Virus record (IMG/VR): IMGVR_UViG_3300022752_000152
Span: 1-40,835 of that record
Source: a virus
DNA: 40,835 nt
Strand: one strand, 5' to 3'
Part shown: positions 14,763-29,117 of the stretch, piece by piece
Numbering within the stretch: the first letter of the stretch is position 1
How the letters are laid out: each line of letters opens with the position of its first letter
Position numbers and translations under genes: made by a program
The notes under the pieces: model-generated
What the model saw: only the letters and a program-made list of their open reading frames with translations
Database searches by the model: none
What the model was told of the DNA's origin: nothing

Positions 14763-15326
14763 TTATTTGACGCCGATTTTCATGAAACGCAAATAGTCAG
14801 TTTCTGGATCACTGAATTGCCTTTCATTCACATACAATACCTCACGCATGGGAAATAGTTCATCAAAATCTACTAGTCGAGCGTGGCCACCTTCCGCATT
14901 GTTTCTACTCTGTAGTGCTATAAGTGGTCCAATGGGCACCGATGAGAACCATCTATGTTTTAGCATATCTGATATGCTGGTATTGATTATGAGACTGTCT
15001 TGATCTGCCTCCATAAAATCAACAGTATTTACATCTGCCCATTTGTTTTCTGACGGAATTTTTAATTTTTTATACAATTCTTGACTGAATTTGACTCTTT
15101 TTTGGTCTTGATCTACATTTATGATCTTTTTAAATTTGATACCGCATTTTTTTAACACATAGCCCATATTGCCATACCAACTGCCTAAAATATAGATTGT
15201 AGAGAATTTGGTTCTTTTTGATTCTTTTAGTTGTTGGCACATCCATATCTTACTGGCTATGAGATCGGGTGTTAGACTACCTTGGAAAGTATCTGGGCTG
15301 GTTTCTAACAAATGTCTTATACGCAT
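14763..15326 (-). CDS. Methyltransferase-like protein (Rossmann motif)
   Basis: A 187-residue protein. IYILGSWYGNMGYVLKKCG (about residues 44-62) and INVDQDQKRV (Asp72) fit motifs I and II of class I SAM-dependent methyltransferases. The later motifs are weak, so activity is not assured. A TTG start at 15341 is possible, but ATG 15326 overlaps the upstream stop as TAATG and is preferred. It closes the long unit that starts at the structural genes. Substrate unknown; nucleic acid and small molecules are both possible. Confidence 0.65.
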   Translation of the reverse strand: MRIRHLLETSPDTFQGSLTPDLIASKIWMCQQLKESKRTKFSTIYILGSWYGNMGYVLKKCGIKFKKIINVDQDQKRVKFSQELYKKLKIPSENKWADVNTVDFMEADQDSLIINTSISDMLKHRWFSSVPIGPLIALQSRNNAEGGHARLVDFDELFPMREVLYVNERQFSDPETDYLRFMKIGVK

Positions 15327-15754
15327 TAATCTGCTCGACAATTCTTATCTTTTTCAGTTATAGGACCACCTGTAATCCATGCTGAACAACTTCTACTGCC
15401 GGCACATTTGAAGTGTAGAAAATTACAATAACCTAAATCGCTTAAATTTATTGTAGCATTTGGATCAATATGGGATTCGTCCCCTTTGATACCATCTGCT
15501 ATACATTTACGCATACTATCACTGACATCAAAGGCAGCACAATTACCACAGGTCATTGTCTTTGCGGTCTTTTCACTGACCTTGAATGAGATAGCGGCCT
15601 TACGCCAATAGTCCTCGGGTTCTTTGGGATTAGCAGGGCCATAATGGTATTCGTCTATGGCCTTTTGACGATTTTTTAGATTGAGATCAATATCGTGAGT
15701 AGCACGGGGACAGCCCTTACCTGCTGCTTCTACTAATGTTATGAAGTTTCTCAT
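15326..15754 (-). CDS. Conserved Cys-rich phage protein
   Basis: A 142-residue protein with eight Cys: Cys15, 69, 72, 84, 110, 117, 123 and 139. The core is CGNCAAF, then LGYCNFLHFKC and RSCSAWITGGPI. The N-terminal half has the NLKNRQKAIDEYHYGPANP block. I recognise this whole arrangement from hypothetical proteins of T4-like cyanophages. The Cys spacing would suit a zinc or iron-sulfur site, but which is not clear. Its start overlaps, as ATGA, the stop of the -1 frame segment at 15751-15996, supporting the reality of that segment. Confidence 0.75.
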   Translation of the reverse strand: MRNFITLVEAAGKGCPRATHDIDLNLKNRQKAIDEYHYGPANPKEPEDYWRKAAISFKVSEKTAKTMTCGNCAAFDVSDSMRKCIADGIKGDESHIDPNATINLSDLGYCNFLHFKCAGSRSCSAWITGGPITEKDKNCRAD

Positions 15755-15996
15755 TTGTTAGGATGCCTTGCCTTGTAGTGTGCTGCTACAGCCATACGTT
15801 CTATATGTTCAGGATCCTTTTTGGTTCCTGGTCTATTGTTTTGTCTAAATTGATGATACTGTTCTGGGTCTGCAGATTGAAAACGATCACGCCAAGTATC
15901 GATGGGCATACTTGCTGATAACTTACCCTGCGGACCGACTGGCTTCTGTGGTTGAGCAGGAGCCTGTGTCGGATCCTCTGGCTCCTGCTCACTTAC
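15751..15996 (-). CDS. -1 frame C-terminal extension of the 662-aa protein
   Basis: After the stop of the gene at 15993-17981 the minus-strand -1 frame stays open for 81 codons and ends with TGA at 15751-15753, overlapping the next start as ATGA. It has no usable start codon at its beginning (upstream stop TAA, then no ATG until codon 30). The protein reads as a genuine sequence: a Pro/Gln-rich linker (TQAPAQPQKPVGPQG) and then a charged domain with IDTWRDRFQSADPEQYHQF and HIERMAVAAHYKARHPNK. It joins in frame to the 662-residue protein if ribosomes slip back one base at 15996-16002, giving a 743-residue product. Alternative: a separate 52-residue protein from the internal ATG, with a weak ribosome site. 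Confidence 0.7.
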   Translation of the reverse strand, partial: VSEQEPEDPTQAPAQPQKPVGPQGKLSASMPIDTWRDRFQSADPEQYHQFRQNNRPGTKKDPEHIERMAVAAHYKARHPNK

Positions 15997-16002
15997 TTTT
16001 TT
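15954..16002 (-). promoter_or_regulatory. Programmed -1 frameshift signal: A_AAA_AAG, 5-base spacer, 11-bp hairpin
   Basis: In the transcript the slippery heptamer A AAA AAG (16002-15996, in the gene's frame) directly precedes stop TAA. Five bases (TAAGT, 15995-15991) separate it from a perfect 11-bp inverted repeat: GAGCAGGAGCC at 15990-15980 pairs with 15964-15954 around a 15-base loop. This is the layout of the E. coli dnaX signal. No T-run follows the hairpin, so it is not a terminator. Confidence 0.8.
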
Positions 16003-17981
16003 GGCTTATGACTTTTATAGCCTTTGTTCTTCATCCAATGACTCAGTGCCCAAGGATTATCAATTTCCTTGTGCTTCTTCATTGCCTTAACTGTGCCTTC
16101 CCAACCTTCGGGTGCTTTTTCTTGTAGTTGATTCCAAAGGCTTTCCATGTAGGGATCTTCACCGAATCTACTGCGATAGGAGTTTGGATTCATGCTATAT
16201 CTTGACCCTATAACGGATTGTCCTTCACCACCTAATAATAAATCATACATAAGTTTTATTACCTTGATAGGTGAATCCATTCTTTCTAAAGCACTCTTAA
16301 ACCAAGCGACCTTTTCCGGTTTCATTGGTTTGGCACTGGGTTTGCTAATTAGAGAAAATGCCTGTGCTTTTAGTGTGGCCAAATCTTTAATCTGTTCTAG
16401 ACGTTTGATATCTTCAATGTCAAAGTTCATTGCTGGTTTTTTGGCTTCGCCTACATCAACATTTTCTTTTTTATAAGCCTTGCTGTATCTGTCTTTGAGC
16501 CTGCCTAATTCCTCTTGGCTGGCACCCCTACGACCTGCTGCCGCAGCCATCCTCATATACTTCTCGCCGTGTTTCTTAACACCTGTGTGATACTGAAGAC
16601 CACTTTCATCTACATCTGTTTCTTTAATCTTTTCGCAGTCATTAACACGCTTGCCTGCGTTTTTACCTGTGCCCGGTTTGGTGCCTACCTTACGATGTCC
16701 TGGCCAACAATTTTTTGGACCAGCAACTCCTTCTGTAAATTTCTCAGCCTTGCCGAATATGCTTTGGAATTTGTCTCCCAATTTTTGAACCAATTGGTCA
16801 CGCTGTTGTTTGCTGAGAACGATTTGGTTGCCGTTAAACTTGAATCCCATTGAACGTAGTTTGGGAATTAGGTCAGTTTGTTGTAGAGTATATTTGAATG
16901 TCTGAGGTTGAACTGGTGTATCGTGCGAACTACCTCCTACCTGTGCCTTAGGAGTATCAGGTTTAAGTTTAATCCTTCTTCCTGTAACTGGATCTACTTT
17001 AAGGATCTTACCACTATCTCTGTCACCTTCATCATCATCAGGGTCTTTTTCATAAAACTCAAGACGGTCATCTATCTGAACCAGTGCGTCTAAATCACCC
17101 ATAATATTATCGGGTAACCAATCGGGGACGACTATCACTATCTTTTCAGTGCCTACGAAGTCTACATCACGTAGAATTTTTTCTATGTTATATTCTAGAT
17201 CGTCAAAAGTGTTGATTATGAAAGGCTTAATTTTGGCATTATTGGCAACTACATCTTTTAAATTAGATCCAAATCCGGCATAGCCGTAGAGTTGCGACTC
17301 TTTATCTGGCAGTTGTTTCTTGGCAAACTTTAAGAACATGGTGCCGCTGGGCTTGTCTAATTCTGTTACAGGTTCTTTAAATTTCTTTTGTAACTTCTGT
17401 GTGTCGTCAGCAGCACGAGCAAATCCTTGTTGATTGAATCTATCTCTCTGTTTCTGAAGAAGGCTTTGAAAGTTACTGACCTTCTTAGGATCCGGTTGGC
17501 TAGGATCACCTTTGAGTTCTCCTAGAGCATCTTGCTCACCACCGATACTTTGTAGAACAGAGTTTAGGTAGTCAGCAGCCTTGGTAATCTTGCTCTGTTG
17601 CCATGCTTCTAAATCACCTTGTTCTCCATACTGTTGTACCAGTGCTAATAGTTTTTTAGCATTGGCATGAATACTCTTGAGTTCGTTGCTGGCCATACTG
17701 ACTTCGTGATCTTCGTAGTAGGGCTTACGATGTTTTTCCTTGCCCTGTTTTTGATCACGTTTTTTATCTTTGTGAGCACCAGCACCTGTTTGCGGACGTA
17801 GAGGGCCTTGTCTTGGCTTTTGGGGAACCCGCTCATCCTTGCCTTCTTGCTGACGTTTGATCACGTTGCCTAGTCCTACTTCACTGGTAGCAATATTACT
17901 GGCACCTATAGCACCTGCTGTCATAGATTCTAAAACATAACGTGTTTCAGTGGGAGTTGTTATTTTTTTAAAGTCTTTCAT
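15993..17981 (-). CDS. Large modular phage protein, 662 aa, ending in frameshift site
   Basis: Function unknown; possibly a virion-packaged (polyvalent-type) protein. It is hydrophilic and modular: an N-terminal ESMTAGAIGASNIATSEVG segment and a basic linker (RPQTGAGAHKDKKRDQK), a helical part, a central alpha/beta section (FIINTFDDLEYNIEKIL, IVIVVPDWLPDN), then short modules I have seen in other aquatic phage proteins (KNCWPGHRKVGTKPGTGK, GLQYHTGVKKHGEKYM with SQEELGRLKDRYSKAYKK, GWEGTVKAMKKHKEIDNPWA). ATG 17981 is chosen over 17996 because it overlaps the upstream stop as ATGA. The stop is preceded by a dnaX-like slippery site; readthrough adds 81 residues. Confidence 0.75.
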   Translation of the reverse strand: MKDFKKITTPTETRYVLESMTAGAIGASNIATSEVGLGNVIKRQQEGKDERVPQKPRQGPLRPQTGAGAHKDKKRDQKQGKEKHRKPYYEDHEVSMASNELKSIHANAKKLLALVQQYGEQGDLEAWQQSKITKAADYLNSVLQSIGGEQDALGELKGDPSQPDPKKVSNFQSLLQKQRDRFNQQGFARAADDTQKLQKKFKEPVTELDKPSGTMFLKFAKKQLPDKESQLYGYAGFGSNLKDVVANNAKIKPFIINTFDDLEYNIEKILRDVDFVGTEKIVIVVPDWLPDNIMGDLDALVQIDDRLEFYEKDPDDDEGDRDSGKILKVDPVTGRRIKLKPDTPKAQVGGSSHDTPVQPQTFKYTLQQTDLIPKLRSMGFKFNGNQIVLSKQQRDQLVQKLGDKFQSIFGKAEKFTEGVAGPKNCWPGHRKVGTKPGTGKNAGKRVNDCEKIKETDVDESGLQYHTGVKKHGEKYMRMAAAAGRRGASQEELGRLKDRYSKAYKKENVDVGEAKKPAMNFDIEDIKRLEQIKDLATLKAQAFSLISKPSAKPMKPEKVAWFKSALERMDSPIKVIKLMYDLLLGGEGQSVIGSRYSMNPNSYRSRFGEDPYMESLWNQLQEKAPEGWEGTVKAMKKHKEIDNPWALSHWMKNKGYKSHKPKK

Positions 17982-18325
17982 GATTTTTTCATCCATTGTG
18001 CCACAGGGCTTACAGTGTTGGTATCTGACAGTTCTTGACTTTTCTTACTGGTTAAAACAATGCCTCGAAATCCCAGATGCTTACCTGTTGCCTTGATAAT
18101 TTCCTCATCTGCTTCTGTATAACCAATTGTAACTAATTTTTGTTGAGTAGGTCCATCTAAAGGCATGGGATAGTCTGGCATACCTGCTAGAGCAATACCA
18201 AATCTATAACTATGGTATGGGCTTGAATTATCTAATTCAGGAAAAGAGTTGGCATTAGGCAAGGCTTTTTCTGTGGCCTTATCTAATTTTTCTTTTCCTT
18301 CTTGGACAAATTCCTTGGCTCTCAT
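17978..18325 (-). CDS. MRAKEF tandem paralogue 1
   Basis: A 115-residue protein of unknown function: MRAKEFVQEGKEK, YHSYRFGIALAGMPDY, TEADEEII and a C-terminal NTVSPVAQWMKK. The adjacent gene at 18322-18666 has the same plan, so the two are tandem duplicates. ATG 18325 gives the shared MRAKEF start and an ATGA overlap; the frame from 18337 would add only residues encoded in the preceding gene's tail. MRA(K/R)EF starts are common among proteins of aquatic T4-like phages. Confidence 0.75.
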   Translation of the reverse strand: MRAKEFVQEGKEKLDKATEKALPNANSFPELDNSSPYHSYRFGIALAGMPDYPMPLDGPTQQKLVTIGYTEADEEIIKATGKHLGFRGIVLTSKKSQELSDTNTVSPVAQWMKKS

Positions 18326-19104: not shown

Positions 19105-22100
19105 TTATTTACCTGTTAATTCACGTAGTATGATCTTGCCTACAAGTTGAGCCATTTGTTTTTCATATGATTCACCAATAGGAACCTGTTTAGTAGTTTG
19201 ACCGGATTTGGGATTTTCGTGGTCGCCTACCTTTACGCCAGACTTATAGACTTTTTTACCACTTTTAGGACTGACATAATAATCGCCCTTAGTGTCTCTA
19301 CCTACGGATTTGACCTTATACTGGTCTCCGCCTTCCGCTACACCTTCTTGAGCATCACCTACCAGATCACCTTGACGAGCAGGTCTTTTCATTTTGCCTT
19401 TTAGGTGAGCAGCAGGACCCAGTTTGTTTTTTGGTGTGCCGGCGAAATGGCTGGCAGGCATCATACGCTCTTTGACCTCTTTACCTTGAACAGCAGTATT
19501 TTTATCCGGCTCCGGTGCCAGACCTGTATCTGCTTTGGGCATATATTTGGCAATTGATTTTTTAGTAAGAGGACCTAACTTGCCATCAATGTCTAAATTG
19601 GCACCTTTGGTATTGAGATATTTTTGAACTGATCTAACAGCAGGATCATTTTCTACCAATTTTGGTCTTACCAAAGCATTAAACAATCTTTCTGCTACAG
19701 GTTGTGGTGCCTGAGGTTGCGGTTTGTTGGCTATGCCCATGTTCTTTCTCGCTATGTCCATTAAGTGCTTGATCCAATCAGCACCGAGTTTTTCTACGTT
19801 ATAGGCCTTGCTCCATACTTGGAACGCCTGATCTTCTGGCATGTTCTTGAGAGCATTGCGTAGTTGTGTAGTTGAAACACCTGTGCCACCTTCTGTATCC
19901 TTGCGTGGTGTTACATAGGTGCTGACCTTGACATGTGCCAATGGAGCAAACTTACTATAACGAGCCTGCATTTGATCAGTGGTCTTGGTCATGCCTGCTT
20001 GGTCGCTGCCTACTGTGATAATGATGTTATTATAGAAAGGTTCTTTCTTGACTAATTCGTATTCAATCTTTTTAAAGATATTGCCCTGTGTTTCTTGACC
20101 ACTAGCATCTATTTGATTTTGAACTACACTGACAGTGACACCTGGGAATAGTTTTCTCAGCGTTTCTAACTTTGTGTTGATATCTATGGGATCATCTGGA
20201 CCAACTTTGTGACCTACAAAAACAAAAGGAGTTCCGTTAAGTTCCCGTGCCTTATCAATGGCAAAGTTTATCAGTTGTTCATGGCCACGGTGACCAGCGA
20301 AGTTACCTATGGCTACCACTGCGGTCCTGGTCTTAGTATCACCAAATGTCTGTGAAGGAGCAGCATTTTTTGCCGACATGGCATCTTTCATTTTTTGGCT
20401 GGTTACTTTAACTAGGCGTCCACTGGGCATGTTGACCACAATACCTTCCATGTTAGCACCAAGTGCGTCTTTGCCTTTGAGTTGAGGACTGTCGATTATG
20501 GCACTACTAAGTTCTTGACGGGCACGATCTAATACGTCTTTATTTCCCTTACGATCAGCAGGATTTAGACCCAATACAGGTTCAATGATCTTGCTGACAT
20601 TTATGCCCTTTTGTTCTAACTTGTTGGTAATAATTTTTATATTACTATCACTGGCGCTTAACAATTTTTGTATGACCTTGTCTTCTACTGGACTGGCCTC
20701 ACCTGTGCTGTATTGTTTGACCATGAATGGTACAAGCGTCATTTCTTTGCCTAACTTTTTAGGATCGTAGGGAATATTTACAAACTTTAATTGTCCATCC
20801 ACTGGCTGTGCCATGGGTGTATATAACATTTCTGCCTGAACAATAGTATCATTAGGTAGTGTCTGTATGAACTTGCTGTTAGTAATCAACTCTAGGGCAT
20901 CGTCATACTTCTTAGTTCTTGCTAGGTTTTCTTCACTCTGACCTTTTTCTATACCAAAGTTTGTAAAATAACCTACATTATCTCTGTATAGGGGCTGTGT
21001 TACCTTACTGGTCATAAAAAATGGACGACCTGATTCATCCTTACCAAATCTAATACCAGCACCATCTACTTTGAGATTGACCTGTATGCCATTTAACGTG
21101 CCACCGTTGTCTGCGATTTCTTTACAGAGTGCTATGAAATCAGCATCCTTCATTTCCATACTACTGACACGACCGTCTGGTAGTCTGTTATAGATATGCT
21201 GAATACCCTGTCGAGCATAATTGGGCTTTGAAGGTGCTGTGGGGTCATCTGCTTCATCTACTATTTCTTCAGTCATCTTATATGATTGGACGTATTCTTG
21301 ACGCATTTGATCAACGTTCATACCTTCGGGAGGTCGAGCACCCGTGGTTTTCATCAGTAGATCAATAGCGGCTGTCTTTTCTGCTGAATCACGTTCTGGA
21401 TCATTCTTGTATAGGCCCTGAGCACCTTTACCAAATGTCTTGTTTAGAAAACTACCAAGCACACGACTCTTTTCTTCTGGATCTAAAAGTTTATTCATTA
21501 CTTCTAATAGACCAGTAAATGACCAAAACTTGTCTGCCAGTTTCTCAGCAGACTTAGGATCCATCTTTACACCAAATAGGCTTTGGAACATCTTGCCGAT
21601 GTCCTGCTCGTAGCCTGCTGCGGGCAGAGCCATCATCACAGGTAGGCCGTCTTTGACTTCGGGCTCATTGGTTACCGGGTTTAAGACTGGAGTGTATTTG
21701 GCTCTGAGTCCACCACCTTCTTTGCTGCTCACAGCAAAACTCAGCATACTATCTTCTTCAGGTTTATCTACCCAGGTTCTATTCTTACCCCTGCCTTCTT
21801 GTTTGCGTAGGAGAAATTGTTTCTTACTTAGAACAGCAAAACTCTGTATAAGGAATTTATGGAATACTCCCTTGACTCCTGCCTGTAGATCATTCCAGTC
21901 ACTTGAATGACTGAAACGACTCCAAGGAGTGGGTTCATCTTGATCAAACTTGACAAACTCTAGGTCAATCTGTATCTTGATAGGTGGATCTTCTAATTCC
22001 CATAGACTGGAGAACTGCTCATTGCCACGTTGAAAACCTAACAGGGTAGCAGGGCCAATTTTACGATCTATGTTGGCCTGTAGGAATTGCTCAAGGTCTG

Positions 22101-22761
22101 CTTCTTTTTCCTTATTGACCATAGTGTCTATGTCGCCTACTTTAGGCTTTTTCTCTACAAAGGTCTTGTCAGGTATGCCTTTTACATTGAAAAAGTGTAG
22201 ACTACTACCACTTAGAAACTTTTGACTCTTTAGTAACTTAGGATCCCATAGGGGTTCTTTATATTGACCAGCATAGGCAGTGCTGATGGCGTTTAATAGG
22301 TTGTTTAATACAGGAACAATGACATTACGATTGGTTACCTGTAGATTAATCTGTTGTGCTGCTCCTGCTTCTGGACGACCCTGCCAACCTGGTTGACCAG
22401 CAGCAAGATTACCACCTTCCATTAATTTACCTAAATTTTCTTTATAGTGACTATAGAGTTGTTGACAAAGTTCTTTGCGTAATTTTTCTGGAAATACCTT
22501 GCCTAATTTACCTTCCATCTTCTTATGAACATAGTATTCTTTACAACCTTTTTTAACCATTTCCATAAGATCGTCTAGGATTTCTTTTTGATCGTGTGAC
22601 CCTTTTAGTTTTTTAATCAAAGGAAATGCATAATCTTTATGTATACGATCATGATCTATAATAAACCAAAACAGATCATTGTGTATAGTTTGTTCATCTT
22701 TTTCCTTTCCAGGCTTAAGATGAATTTGTGAGGCTTTTCCAAAAAATTCTGTTAATAGCAT
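19105..22761 (-). CDS. Giant multi-enzyme protein: NTase, ligase-like and HxGH adenylyltransferase domains
   Basis: A 1218-residue protein. Domains in order: a helical N-terminus; a Pol-beta-like nucleotidyltransferase region with SGSS (184-187), GDID (Asp210, Asp212) and a third Asp in QIDLEF (266); an ATP/NAD-dependent ligase-like adenylation region with KVDGAG (Lys564), AEML (Glu644), EGIVV (Glu772) and RLVKV (Lys785); a cytidylyl/adenylyltransferase domain with GNFAGHRGHE (HxGH, 824-827) and VSTTQLR (962-968); a peptidoglycan-binding-like repeat (VRSVQKYLNTKG to LGPLTKKSIAKYM, about 1042-1074); and a Lys-rich tail with small modules. It suggests nucleic-acid end repair or nucleotide work, perhaps injected with the DNA. 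ATG 22761 replaces a TTG at 22788. Confidence 0.78.
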   Translation of the reverse strand: MLLTEFFGKASQIHLKPGKEKDEQTIHNDLFWFIIDHDRIHKDYAFPLIKKLKGSHDQKEILDDLMEMVKKGCKEYYVHKKMEGKLGKVFPEKLRKELCQQLYSHYKENLGKLMEGGNLAAGQPGWQGRPEAGAAQQINLQVTNRNVIVPVLNNLLNAISTAYAGQYKEPLWDPKLLKSQKFLSGSSLHFFNVKGIPDKTFVEKKPKVGDIDTMVNKEKEADLEQFLQANIDRKIGPATLLGFQRGNEQFSSLWELEDPPIKIQIDLEFVKFDQDEPTPWSRFSHSSDWNDLQAGVKGVFHKFLIQSFAVLSKKQFLLRKQEGRGKNRTWVDKPEEDSMLSFAVSSKEGGGLRAKYTPVLNPVTNEPEVKDGLPVMMALPAAGYEQDIGKMFQSLFGVKMDPKSAEKLADKFWSFTGLLEVMNKLLDPEEKSRVLGSFLNKTFGKGAQGLYKNDPERDSAEKTAAIDLLMKTTGARPPEGMNVDQMRQEYVQSYKMTEEIVDEADDPTAPSKPNYARQGIQHIYNRLPDGRVSSMEMKDADFIALCKEIADNGGTLNGIQVNLKVDGAGIRFGKDESGRPFFMTSKVTQPLYRDNVGYFTNFGIEKGQSEENLARTKKYDDALELITNSKFIQTLPNDTIVQAEMLYTPMAQPVDGQLKFVNIPYDPKKLGKEMTLVPFMVKQYSTGEASPVEDKVIQKLLSASDSNIKIITNKLEQKGINVSKIIEPVLGLNPADRKGNKDVLDRARQELSSAIIDSPQLKGKDALGANMEGIVVNMPSGRLVKVTSQKMKDAMSAKNAAPSQTFGDTKTRTAVVAIGNFAGHRGHEQLINFAIDKARELNGTPFVFVGHKVGPDDPIDINTKLETLRKLFPGVTVSVVQNQIDASGQETQGNIFKKIEYELVKKEPFYNNIIITVGSDQAGMTKTTDQMQARYSKFAPLAHVKVSTYVTPRKDTEGGTGVSTTQLRNALKNMPEDQAFQVWSKAYNVEKLGADWIKHLMDIARKNMGIANKPQPQAPQPVAERLFNALVRPKLVENDPAVRSVQKYLNTKGANLDIDGKLGPLTKKSIAKYMPKADTGLAPEPDKNTAVQGKEVKERMMPASHFAGTPKNKLGPAAHLKGKMKRPARQGDLVGDAQEGVAEGGDQYKVKSVGRDTKGDYYVSPKSGKKVYKSGVKVGDHENPKSGQTTKQVPIGESYEKQMAQLVGKIILRELTGK

Positions 22762-22763
22762 AA

Positions 22764-23255
22764 TTATTCCCAAGCCCTGCAAGACCAATATCGTGCTTTA
22801 TGACGAGGTCCAGGATTGTCGCAGTTGTGTCTTGCTCTAAAAGATTTACGGCGTTTGGGATTAGATTTTTTAATCTTCATCTTTTTATCACCGAAGTTAA
22901 CTTTTACCACATTACCTTTGGGTCCTTTTACATAAACTTTAGATTTTTTAACATCGCCAGCCATTGGCTTACCTAGAGGCACATCGCGGCCTTGATATTC
23001 TGCTTCTTGTAGGTCGTTGATATCCCCACCACCTTCCATGATGGCCAATTGCATTTCTGTGAATTTAGTAATAGATTCTTTAACAGGTTGGTGTTTTAAG
23101 TAAGATAATACCACATCATCGCCTTGAATAACTAGGCCATCTGCCATAAACCCTACAATTACAGATTCTATTAAGAGGCCGTTATCTAATTCTAGAGCAA
23201 ATATATCTCCAGTTCTTAAAGTATTATCAGATTCAATTAGGTCAAGTATTCTCAT
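22764..23255 (-). CDS. Conserved two-part phage protein with basic Cys-containing C-terminus
   Basis: A 163-residue protein of unknown function. The N-terminal half (MRILDLIESDNT, GDIFALELDNG, DDVVLSYLKHQ) is beta-rich. After an EAEYQGRDVPLGKPM linker the C-terminal half is strongly basic (KSKVYVKGPKGNVVKVNFG, then SFRARHNCDNPGPR and RYWSCRAWE). I recognise this C-terminal block as a module recurring in aquatic phage proteins. Its charge and two Cys suggest nucleic-acid or metal binding. Confidence 0.75.
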   Translation of the reverse strand: MRILDLIESDNTLRTGDIFALELDNGLLIESVIVGFMADGLVIQGDDVVLSYLKHQPVKESITKFTEMQLAIMEGGGDINDLQEAEYQGRDVPLGKPMAGDVKKSKVYVKGPKGNVVKVNFGDKKMKIKKSNPKRRKSFRARHNCDNPGPRHKARYWSCRAWE

Positions 23256-26361: not shown

Positions 26362-26369
26362 TATTTATG
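26362..26369 (-). promoter_or_regulatory. T4-type late promoter octamer, structural genes
   Basis: The minus strand reads CATAAATA, a 7 of 8 match to the T4 late element TATAAATA and a full match to the NATAAATA form of T4-like cyanophages. It overlaps the clpA stop and stands 8 bases before the start of the structural gene at 26354, so transcripts would have a very short leader. Confidence 0.5.
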
Positions 26370-28635
26370 TAATTTCCATTTCCTCCTCTTCACTTGGTAT
26401 TGGTTTATTTTTTTCAATAAATTTAAATGACAATTTTTCATCTACCATATTAATTTCTACAATTCCGCCATTTGTTAGCTTTCCGAACAACATTTCCTTG
26501 CTGATAGGCAACTTTATTTCTTCATTAATGATACGCTGTAATGGTCTTGCCCCCATTTTGCTGTCAAACCCTTGTTTGACCAAAAATTCTAAAGCATCTT
26601 TGTGGGGTTTTATGGATATTTTCTTACCTTTTATTAAAAAATTCAATTCATCTATAAATTTTTTGACAATCTTGTGCATGGTTTGTTGATCAAGTTTGTC
26701 AAACAAAACTATAGAATCTAGCCTATTTCTAAATTCAGGAGCAAAAAATTTATTAACACTGGTATTAAGGTCAATACTTTTGTCAAGTTTACTAAAACCA
26801 ATACTGTTTTGCTCAGCGTCAGCAGCTCCTAGATTGCTAGTCATGATTAATATAACATTTCTAGCATCTGCTGTTTTTCCGTTTGACCCAGTAATAAAAC
26901 CGTTATCCATTAATTGTAATAAAATTTGTAAAACATCCGGATGAGCTTTTTCAACTTCGTCTAGTAAAAGAACACAGTGAGGAGTTTCTTGTAGTTTGGT
27001 AATTAGTTGTCCTGCATTATCTTCAAATCCAACATATCCTGGAGGGCTTCCTATTAATTTAGCTATACTATGCTTTTCTTGATATTCACTCATATCGAAT
27101 CTCAGCATTTTAATTCCTAAATTTTTGGATAATTGTTTTGCTACTTCGGTTTTACCTACACCAGTAGGACCCACAAATAGAAAACATCCTATAGGTTTAT
27201 CTAAGCTTTTCAGTCCTGCTTGGCTTATATAAATTTTATTTAATAGTTTATCAATAGCTTTATCTTGTCCAAATACTGTGCCTAACATATTTTTCTCTAA
27301 ATTAGCTAGGGTATTACTTTCTTTGTTAATAACATTGTCCGGAGGTATATTGGCAATTTTTGCAACTTCAAACAAAACCTGCTCTCTATCTACTATGCCA
27401 TTCTCTATGTTTTTAATTTTAAATCTTGCAGCAGCACAGTCTATCAAATCTAGTGCTTTATCTGGTAATTTTTTATCAGTCATGTATTTTATACTATACT
27501 TTACACTATCAATTATAGCTTGGTTAGTAATTTTAACCCCATGATGTTTTTCATAGTATTTTTTCAAACCTTTTAAAATCTTGATTGAAGTTGCTTCGCT
27601 AGGTTCGTCTACACTTAGTCTTTGAAACCTTCTCATAAGAGCTCTATCTTTTTCAAAGTGTTTACGATATTCTTCCCAAGTTGTTGATGCTATTACTTTA
27701 ATGTTTCCTTTACTGAGTGCAGGCTTCAGCATATTGGCCATATCATTACTACTTCCATTGGCTGCTCCAGCTCCATTCATCATATGCGCTTCGTCTATGA
27801 ATAAAATACAATTGCCTTTTTTCTCAATAGCCTGTAAGACCATTTTAGTTCGTTCTTCAAAATCTCCTCTATATTTAGAACCTGCAAGTAAAGAACTAAT
27901 ATCTAAATTATAAACGCTGTAATCTTTTATAAAATTTGGTACATTTTCGTCTATAATTTTTTTAGCGAGTCCTTCTGCAATGGCAGTTTTACCAACACCT
28001 GGATCTCCTACCATTAAAACATTAGCTTTTGTTCTACGTGCTAGAATTAAACAGATTTCTTCTAATTCTTTTTCACGTCCTATTACAGGATCAATTTTTT
28101 TAGATTTTGCTTTGGCTGTTAAATTAGTACAATATTTTTGAATGGTTTTTTCTAATTGAGAAATACTTACTGATTCTTCTTGTGAGTTTTCTTGTTCTGC
28201 CAATCCTTCTTGTTTTGCATATTCATAAAATTCAGTTTTATTAATATTTGCTTTATTCAAAAAATATTGTGCATAGGATTTTCTTTCAGAGAAAATCCCC
28301 ATGAAACAATCGAATGGTTCTATATGATTTTTCCCTGAAAATAAAGCATTAGCAAAAGCCTTGTGTAAGACTCTGTCTACTGCGCTAGTTTTTTTTGGTT
28401 TAACAGGATCAATTGATTCTATATCTTTTAATTCATTCTCTATATAATTTTTTAAATCATCTACAAGATTATCTACATCTGTTCCAAATTTTGTAAGTAC
28501 ATTTTTAAAATCATCGGTTGATACTATACAAAATAATAAATGTTCTAATGTTATATAAACATGTCTTTTTTCTATTGCTAATTTAACTGAGTCGGCAAAA
28601 ATTTGTTCTAATTCTTTATTAGGTTGAATCGCCAT
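26365..28635 (-). CDS. clpA: ClpA-type AAA+ unfoldase
   Basis: A 756-residue protein (E. coli ClpA is 758). An N-domain (about 1-145) precedes two AAA+ modules: Walker A GDPGVGKT (210-217) and Walker B FIDEAH (about 279-284); then GPTGVGKT (489-496) and LLLDE (556-560). Ahead of the second module's small domain lies IGF (612-614), matching the tripeptide of the ClpP-binding loop. ClpA unfolds proteins and feeds them to ClpP. No clpP is in the window, so it may dock on the host ClpP. Stop of pdf and this ATG overlap (TAATG), making dnaJ-pdf-clpA a single unit. Confidence 0.95.
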   Translation of the reverse strand: MAIQPNKELEQIFADSVKLAIEKRHVYITLEHLLFCIVSTDDFKNVLTKFGTDVDNLVDDLKNYIENELKDIESIDPVKPKKTSAVDRVLHKAFANALFSGKNHIEPFDCFMGIFSERKSYAQYFLNKANINKTEFYEYAKQEGLAEQENSQEESVSISQLEKTIQKYCTNLTAKAKSKKIDPVIGREKELEEICLILARRTKANVLMVGDPGVGKTAIAEGLAKKIIDENVPNFIKDYSVYNLDISSLLAGSKYRGDFEERTKMVLQAIEKKGNCILFIDEAHMMNGAGAANGSSNDMANMLKPALSKGNIKVIASTTWEEYRKHFEKDRALMRRFQRLSVDEPSEATSIKILKGLKKYYEKHHGVKITNQAIIDSVKYSIKYMTDKKLPDKALDLIDCAAARFKIKNIENGIVDREQVLFEVAKIANIPPDNVINKESNTLANLEKNMLGTVFGQDKAIDKLLNKIYISQAGLKSLDKPIGCFLFVGPTGVGKTEVAKQLSKNLGIKMLRFDMSEYQEKHSIAKLIGSPPGYVGFEDNAGQLITKLQETPHCVLLLDEVEKAHPDVLQILLQLMDNGFITGSNGKTADARNVILIMTSNLGAADAEQNSIGFSKLDKSIDLNTSVNKFFAPEFRNRLDSIVLFDKLDQQTMHKIVKKFIDELNFLIKGKKISIKPHKDALEFLVKQGFDSKMGARPLQRIINEEIKLPISKEMLFGKLTNGGIVEINMVDEKLSFKFIEKNKPIPSEEEEMEIT

Positions 28636-29117
28636 TATCGTTTCCTTTTATTTGCCCTGTTCCATTTTAAATTACTAACACGATCTTTGAAAACGATTCC
28701 TTCCAAATGATCTAGTTCATGCAAAAAACATTTACAGTCGTAGCCTCTAAATTCACCCTCCTCCCATTCTCCTTTGTAATTTTGCCATTTTGCCTTAATG
28801 GCTGAAGGTCTTTTAACTTTTACATATGTATTAGGAAAACTCAAGCATCCTTCCTCCATTTCAGATATTGTTTCTGTACAACTTATCACTATAGGATTGA
28901 AAAATGCTTTACCTAATTCTGGATTATCCTTATGGCCCATTACAAAAACCCTATATGATAATCCTATTTGATTGGCGGCTAATCCAATGCCGTTGGCATC
29001 ATACATAAATTGTAACATGTTTTTTTCTAGTTCTAAAGTATTAATTAAATTGTTAAAGTCAAATGTAGGCAATGGAATTCTTAATATATCATTAGGAAAA
29101 GTAATTATGTTAAACAT
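28635..29117 (-). CDS. def: Peptide deformylase
   Basis: A 160-residue enzyme that removes the formyl group from nascent N-terminal Met. All three motifs are seen: GIGLAANQ (43-50), EEGCLSFP (Cys91) and HELDH (His133, Glu134, His137); Cys and both His bind the metal. Phage-borne deformylases are well known in marine T4-like cyanophages. The gene lies between dnaJ (8-base overlap) and clpA (TAATG overlap), a protein-maturation and quality-control group. Confidence 0.95.
   Translation of the reverse strand: MFNIITFPNDILRIPLPTFDFNNLINTLELEKNMLQFMYDANGIGLAANQIGLSYRVFVMGHKDNPELGKAFFNPIVISCTETISEMEEGCLSFPNTYVKVKRPSAIKAKWQNYKGEWEEGEFRGYDCKCFLHELDHLEGIVFKDRVSNLKWNRANKRKR

Follow-up and report, generated by a model that had tools for sequence, protein, structure and literature searches.

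A conserved candidate dnaX-type -1 frameshift signal at the 3' end of a mosaic phage gene, and the routes by which relatives attach the same domain

Does a large phage gene that stops directly after a slippery heptamer make one protein or two? The question comes from the window, by which we mean the whole stretch of 40,835 nucleotides that we analysed (IMG/VR virus record IMGVR_UViG_3300022752_000152, positions 1 to 40,835). A sequence-only reading of this DNA had proposed a dnaX-type -1 programmed frameshift at the end of the gene at 15993-17981. The comparisons described here support that reading, and we consider it very probable that some copies of a mosaic phage protein gain a C-terminal domain through -1 programmed ribosomal frameshifting of the dnaX type.

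All of the elements lie on the minus strand, and each of them could be confirmed as described by that reading. The 0-frame ORF (15993..17981; MKDFKKITTP...KPKK) has 662 codons if it begins at 17981, a start that fits relatives beginning M(K/T/N)xEFKKI; an in-frame ATG upstream at 17996 is a second possible start and would give an ORF of 15993-17996. The last codons are CCA AAA AAG TAA, so that the heptamer A AAA AAG (16002-15996) is abutted by the 0-frame stop TAA (15993..15995). The stop is part of a 5-nt spacer, TAAGT (15991..15995), which leads to a perfect hairpin with a 5' arm GAGCAGGAGCC (15980..15990) and a 3' arm GGCTCCTGCTC (15954..15964), that is, 11 Watson-Crick pairs with no mismatch and a loop of 15 nt. 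The -1 frame (15754..15996; VSEQEP...HPNK) stays open for exactly 81 codons, counted after Lys-Lys, and ends at a TGA (15751..15753) in an ATGA overlap with the ATG of the next gene (15326-15754). We found no -1-frame start codon near the front of this extension. The lengths given for the two putative products, 662 and 743 residues, also hold.

The extension had been read as a linker plus a domain, and structure prediction agrees. With AlphaFold2 and a 38-row family alignment of the domain, the last 57 residues (KLSASMPIDTW...HPNK; 15754..15924) are predicted to fold into a compact helical domain with no strands (pLDDT 94.7, pTM 0.75); with a smaller alignment of 17 rows the pLDDT was 66.

A slippery heptamer near the end of an ORF means little by itself because the window has 15 such sites. 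We judged this signal to be real because the whole layout was found again in dozens of independent contigs. An exact scan of IMG/VR for the 20-mer AAAAAAGTAAGTGAGCAGGA gave 33 contigs; in every one the 0 frame stops after the heptamer and the -1 frame carries a homologous extension. We widened this set with a relaxed pattern and two alignment searches, one of them a protein search on the domain, to a hairpin group of about 54 contigs spread over about 47 datasets (by a tally of contig names), all of them metagenomic, with 33 distinct 100-nt junctions.

The heptamer is in phase at every one of these junctions, 28 of which read A AAA AAG and 5 A AAA AAA, and the spacer is 5 nt at all 33. The next 0-frame codon is TAA in 32; in the remaining one, L225, which was recovered by the protein search on the domain, it is TCC followed by TAG, and the stem is kept despite the shifted stop. 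The remainder of the layout is likewise kept where the heptamer varies. The search for the same heptamer, spacer and -1 frame in related phages that had been proposed as a check thus came out in favor of the signal, and, on this comparison of sequences, the layout in the window is neither chance nor assembly error. Outside IMG/VR, tblastn of the extension, the domain and the N-terminus against INPHARED gave no match, the sole match of the whole protein there was a stretch of about 75 aa in Synechococcus phages, and a scan of GTDB contigs gave no relatives of the extension.

We propose that a share of ribosomes would decode AAA AAG and halt at the adjoining TAA, which would give the 662-aa protein. 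The remaining ribosomes would pause at the stem, which begins 5 nt past the heptamer, while the two tRNA-Lys shift their pairing from A AAA AAG to AAA AAA; translation would then run on in the -1 frame through the 81-codon linker and domain to give a protein of 743 aa. The heptamer, stop, spacer, stem, linker and domain together behave like one conserved cassette at the C-terminus of a mosaic protein that is otherwise shuffled fast, and the signal likely serves to place a small helical domain on only some of the copies.

If the -1 frame is translated, it should be constrained, and a dN/dS check had been suggested for this reason. Pairwise dN/dS of the domain has a median of 0.22 in the hairpin group, with 94% of pairs below 0.5, and a median of 0.14 in relatives that carry the domain in frame. 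Indels in the extension preserve the -1 frame among the relatives compared. Taken as a result from sequence, this shows the extension to be real coding sequence under purifying selection. Where a Val codon follows the heptamer in the -1 frame, it is GTA in 27 of 28 cases, against a GTA usage of 38%, a bias that is expected if the 0-frame TAA is being kept. In three relatives, L029, L031 and L034, the extensions are longer (133-289 aa) and, still in the -1 frame, carry further modules (ADGKNPQDKGDSKRHGINTK...) beyond the domain; a frameshift there would attach two or more modules.

The hairpin needs more care, since the 5' arm was part of most of our search patterns and its constancy therefore proves little. 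The 3' arm was in none of them. CCTGCT stands within reach in 32/32 family sites, compared with 3/46 unrelated matches of the same pattern, and the Pro-Ala pair encoded in the stem is written CCTGCT in 33/33, whereas elsewhere Pro-Ala is written in nine ways. The window junction folds at -28.8 kcal/mol with RNAfold (z -3.5), and none of 200 shuffles was equally stable; against synonymous recodings of the window's own peptide the z-score was -3.8 (0/300). When the peptide of each junction was recoded synonymously the folds were weaker, with a mean z of -3.1 and 33/33 below -1. Compensatory changes in the stem, another of the proposed checks, show modest covariation: they are present at pair 9, which varies among G-C, A-U, U-A and G-U, and at pair 10, where C-G becomes G-C in L117, but they are few because the 6-bp core of the stem is invariant across the 33 junctions. 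By these comparisons the hairpin is conserved more strongly than its coding content requires.

The same domain is attached in other ways in related phages, which suggests that it matters to them, and these other ways bear on how the window should be read. We compared 65 distinct domain contexts. In-frame fusion of the full domain accounts for 15 of them (e.g. L104, L109, L114, L234), which we counted in favor of the frameshift reading. In six relatives (L004, L222, L205, L230, L112, L200) the domain is reached by a -1 shift at a run of A9 or A10 just ahead of it. Eight contigs (L232, L235-L240, L244) have a domain that is interrupted mid-way by GAAAAAAAAAAG TAA, a run of A10 followed by G, and whose second half lies in the -1 frame; a profile search of the 221-kb record of L237 found the domain in two pieces in two frames. 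We had considered relatives ending KTPEKKK* to have lost the end of the domain, and this was rejected, as their DNA shows a different kind of -1 shift, at A10. The ends of full in-frame genes, which we also inspected for an extra shift, mostly show just a normal ATGA overlap with the next gene.

The six A9/A10 relatives and the eight contigs with A10 inside the domain have no strong hairpin, and slippage at runs of nine A or T is established for bacteria (PMC5009743). This raises the possibility that RNA polymerase inserts an extra A there and that ordinary translation then gives the long form. The A9/A10 relatives match the run length for such slippage and are candidate transcriptional slippage sites. 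The window itself has a run of only A6, however, and the hairpin group has mostly A6-A7 with the stem at a fixed 5-nt spacer and the heptamer in phase. A fixed spacer and an in-phase heptamer are explained by tRNA slippage but are not needed by polymerase slippage. We therefore infer ribosomal slippage in the window and regard the transcriptional route there as improbable.

It is still less likely that the extension is a separate small gene, expressed by re-initiation past the TAA or from an internal ATG. The window and several relatives do have an internal ATG 5-8 residues into the domain, and there is an AGGAG within the stem. But this internal start is missing in L007, L030, L117, L100 and others, the GTG past the TAA is in the 0 frame and not the -1 frame, conserved coding reaches all the way to the heptamer (VSEQEP), and the domain belongs to the same protein in sister phages. 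Neither pattern that the sequence-only reading had named as telling against it turned up: none of the relatives found encodes the extension as a separate, well-initiated ORF, and the -1 frame is under selection. Each untruncated relative has the domain in frame, at the heptamer with hairpin, or in the -1 frame at a long A run. A sequencing or assembly error, in which an A lost from a homopolymer cut one ORF in two, would fit a shift located at an A run and a domain that is in frame in sister phages, yet it can be set aside with near certainty, being already contradicted by the sequences: the same heptamer, TAA and hairpin occur in the roughly 54 contigs and 47 datasets, and an error would not create selection on the third base of a Val codon or on a hairpin.

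With a -1 programmed ribosomal frameshift as the preferred reading for the window, the variety among the relatives can be considered as a whole. The 0-frame C-termini upstream of the signal vary among the hairpin-bearing genes (HWMKNKGYKSHK, AYATAWKAKNKAKK, DPYFESLRSKVEELAKK, LESKK), so the frameshift cassette has been joined to several modules. A tree of the domain has about six route changes over five labels, although it is poorly resolved (53 columns) and fixes no order or root. It is about an even bet that four interchangeable means keep one domain (in-frame fusion, a ribosomal -1 shift with the hairpin, a -1 shift at A9/A10 ahead of the domain, and one at A10 inside it) and that the frameshift cassette is attached as one unit to differing upstream modules. 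If this is true, the family would be a natural experiment on how phages switch from ribosomal to transcriptional slippage or back, and there would be selection for a mix of products in three of the four routes; such a mix may be needed. In L112 and L200 the module before the A run is MMPASHFAGTPKNKLGPAAHLKGKMKRPARQGDLVG, which is also found near the end of the neighboring cytidyltransferase-like protein in the window (19105-22788, minus strand), and modules seem to be exchanged between genes.

The initial reading had called such a signal unusual outside of tail-assembly chaperones, dnaX and IS elements. This does not stand, since signals of this kind are known at the ends of phage genes, in T7/T3 gene 10, Lactobacillus phage A2 and Listeria phages (PMC5009743). 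There, as is proposed here, a shift at the gene end gives a share of the copies a C-terminal domain. Phage Ig-like extensions are made in frame or by a frameshift of either direction (PMC5009743), and the relatives in our set also make the extension in frame or by another shift. The domain here differs from those Ig-like domains in being small and helical, with no Pfam, PHROG or PDB match; the structure prediction for the extension, helical with no strands, shows no Ig-like beta fold. Another difference is that the gene encodes a mosaic protein, not a proven capsid or tail protein, and that the signal is A AAA AAG plus a stem.

A close parallel in mechanism is dnaX, whose type of frameshifting is matched here in the kind of heptamer, its phase, the spacer and the stem. 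In E. coli dnaX, A AAA AAG, a stem-loop and a Shine-Dalgarno-like stimulator act together at 70-80% (PMC6787027), and a reversed dnaX type, whose 0-frame stop follows the site immediately, has a candidate in Chlorobium (PMC5009743). The window resembles the reversed type in its A AAA AAG, its downstream stem-loop, its stop abutting the site and a putative long form made by the shift. The gene itself is unrelated to dnaX, there is no Rfam match, and the upstream Shine-Dalgarno element is not conserved: by inspection, GAGGA a few nt ahead of the heptamer is only in the L026-like group and is absent from the window and most groups. The frameshift efficiency may thus be below that of E. coli dnaX. 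The Thermus dnaX type uses transcriptional slippage at nine A or T (PMC5009743), and so it resembles our A9/A10 relatives while the window differs, with A6 and a hairpin. The window does not fit the G/GT type of tail-assembly chaperone, as there is no PHROG or Pfam chaperone match and the neighbors are not a tape measure. The frameshift of IS3-family transposases uses the same type of heptamer with a 3' structure. There is no transposase here and the gene family is unrelated.

The mechanism itself is established. What appears to be new is the gene family and its switching from one route of expression to another, and it is unusual for the means of attaching one domain to turn over in this way. 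With this result a family of phage genes gains a well-supported and widespread recoding signal, one whose extension standard gene calling would miss or name as a separate ORF. Because the family attaches one domain in several ways, it could be tested within a single gene whether a frameshift is selected or merely tolerated, with the in-frame relatives as natural controls.

As to what the protein does, searches with the domain and the whole protein against Pfam, PHROGs, Rfam, PDB sequences and Foldseek gave no match that would indicate a function. The only fold matches were weak and viral, to parts of uncultured-phage and cyanophage proteins (TM 0.67-0.70, E 0.2 or worse). The family shares a common N-terminus, MxxEFKKI...RYVLES...RR...KPRNFVAKNAKMGGAGxHKDKKK, and the middle of the protein is a mosaic with a few DUF modules. 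Among the neighbors are T4 gp9/10-like genes, virion structural genes and lysis genes, and a virion or assembly role of the protein is plausible.

The conserved N-terminal segment often ends in L(I/L)AQE or LLTPE after the RR pair, which may be a processing site. By its DNA polymerase this virus comes nearest to large phages of the type of Phosso and Atu_ph07, with identities of 51% and 47%. The window also encodes a full ClpB/ClpA-like AAA+ protein (26365-28635, minus strand; phrog_4871), and this gene adjoins a peptide deformylase gene at 28635-29117.
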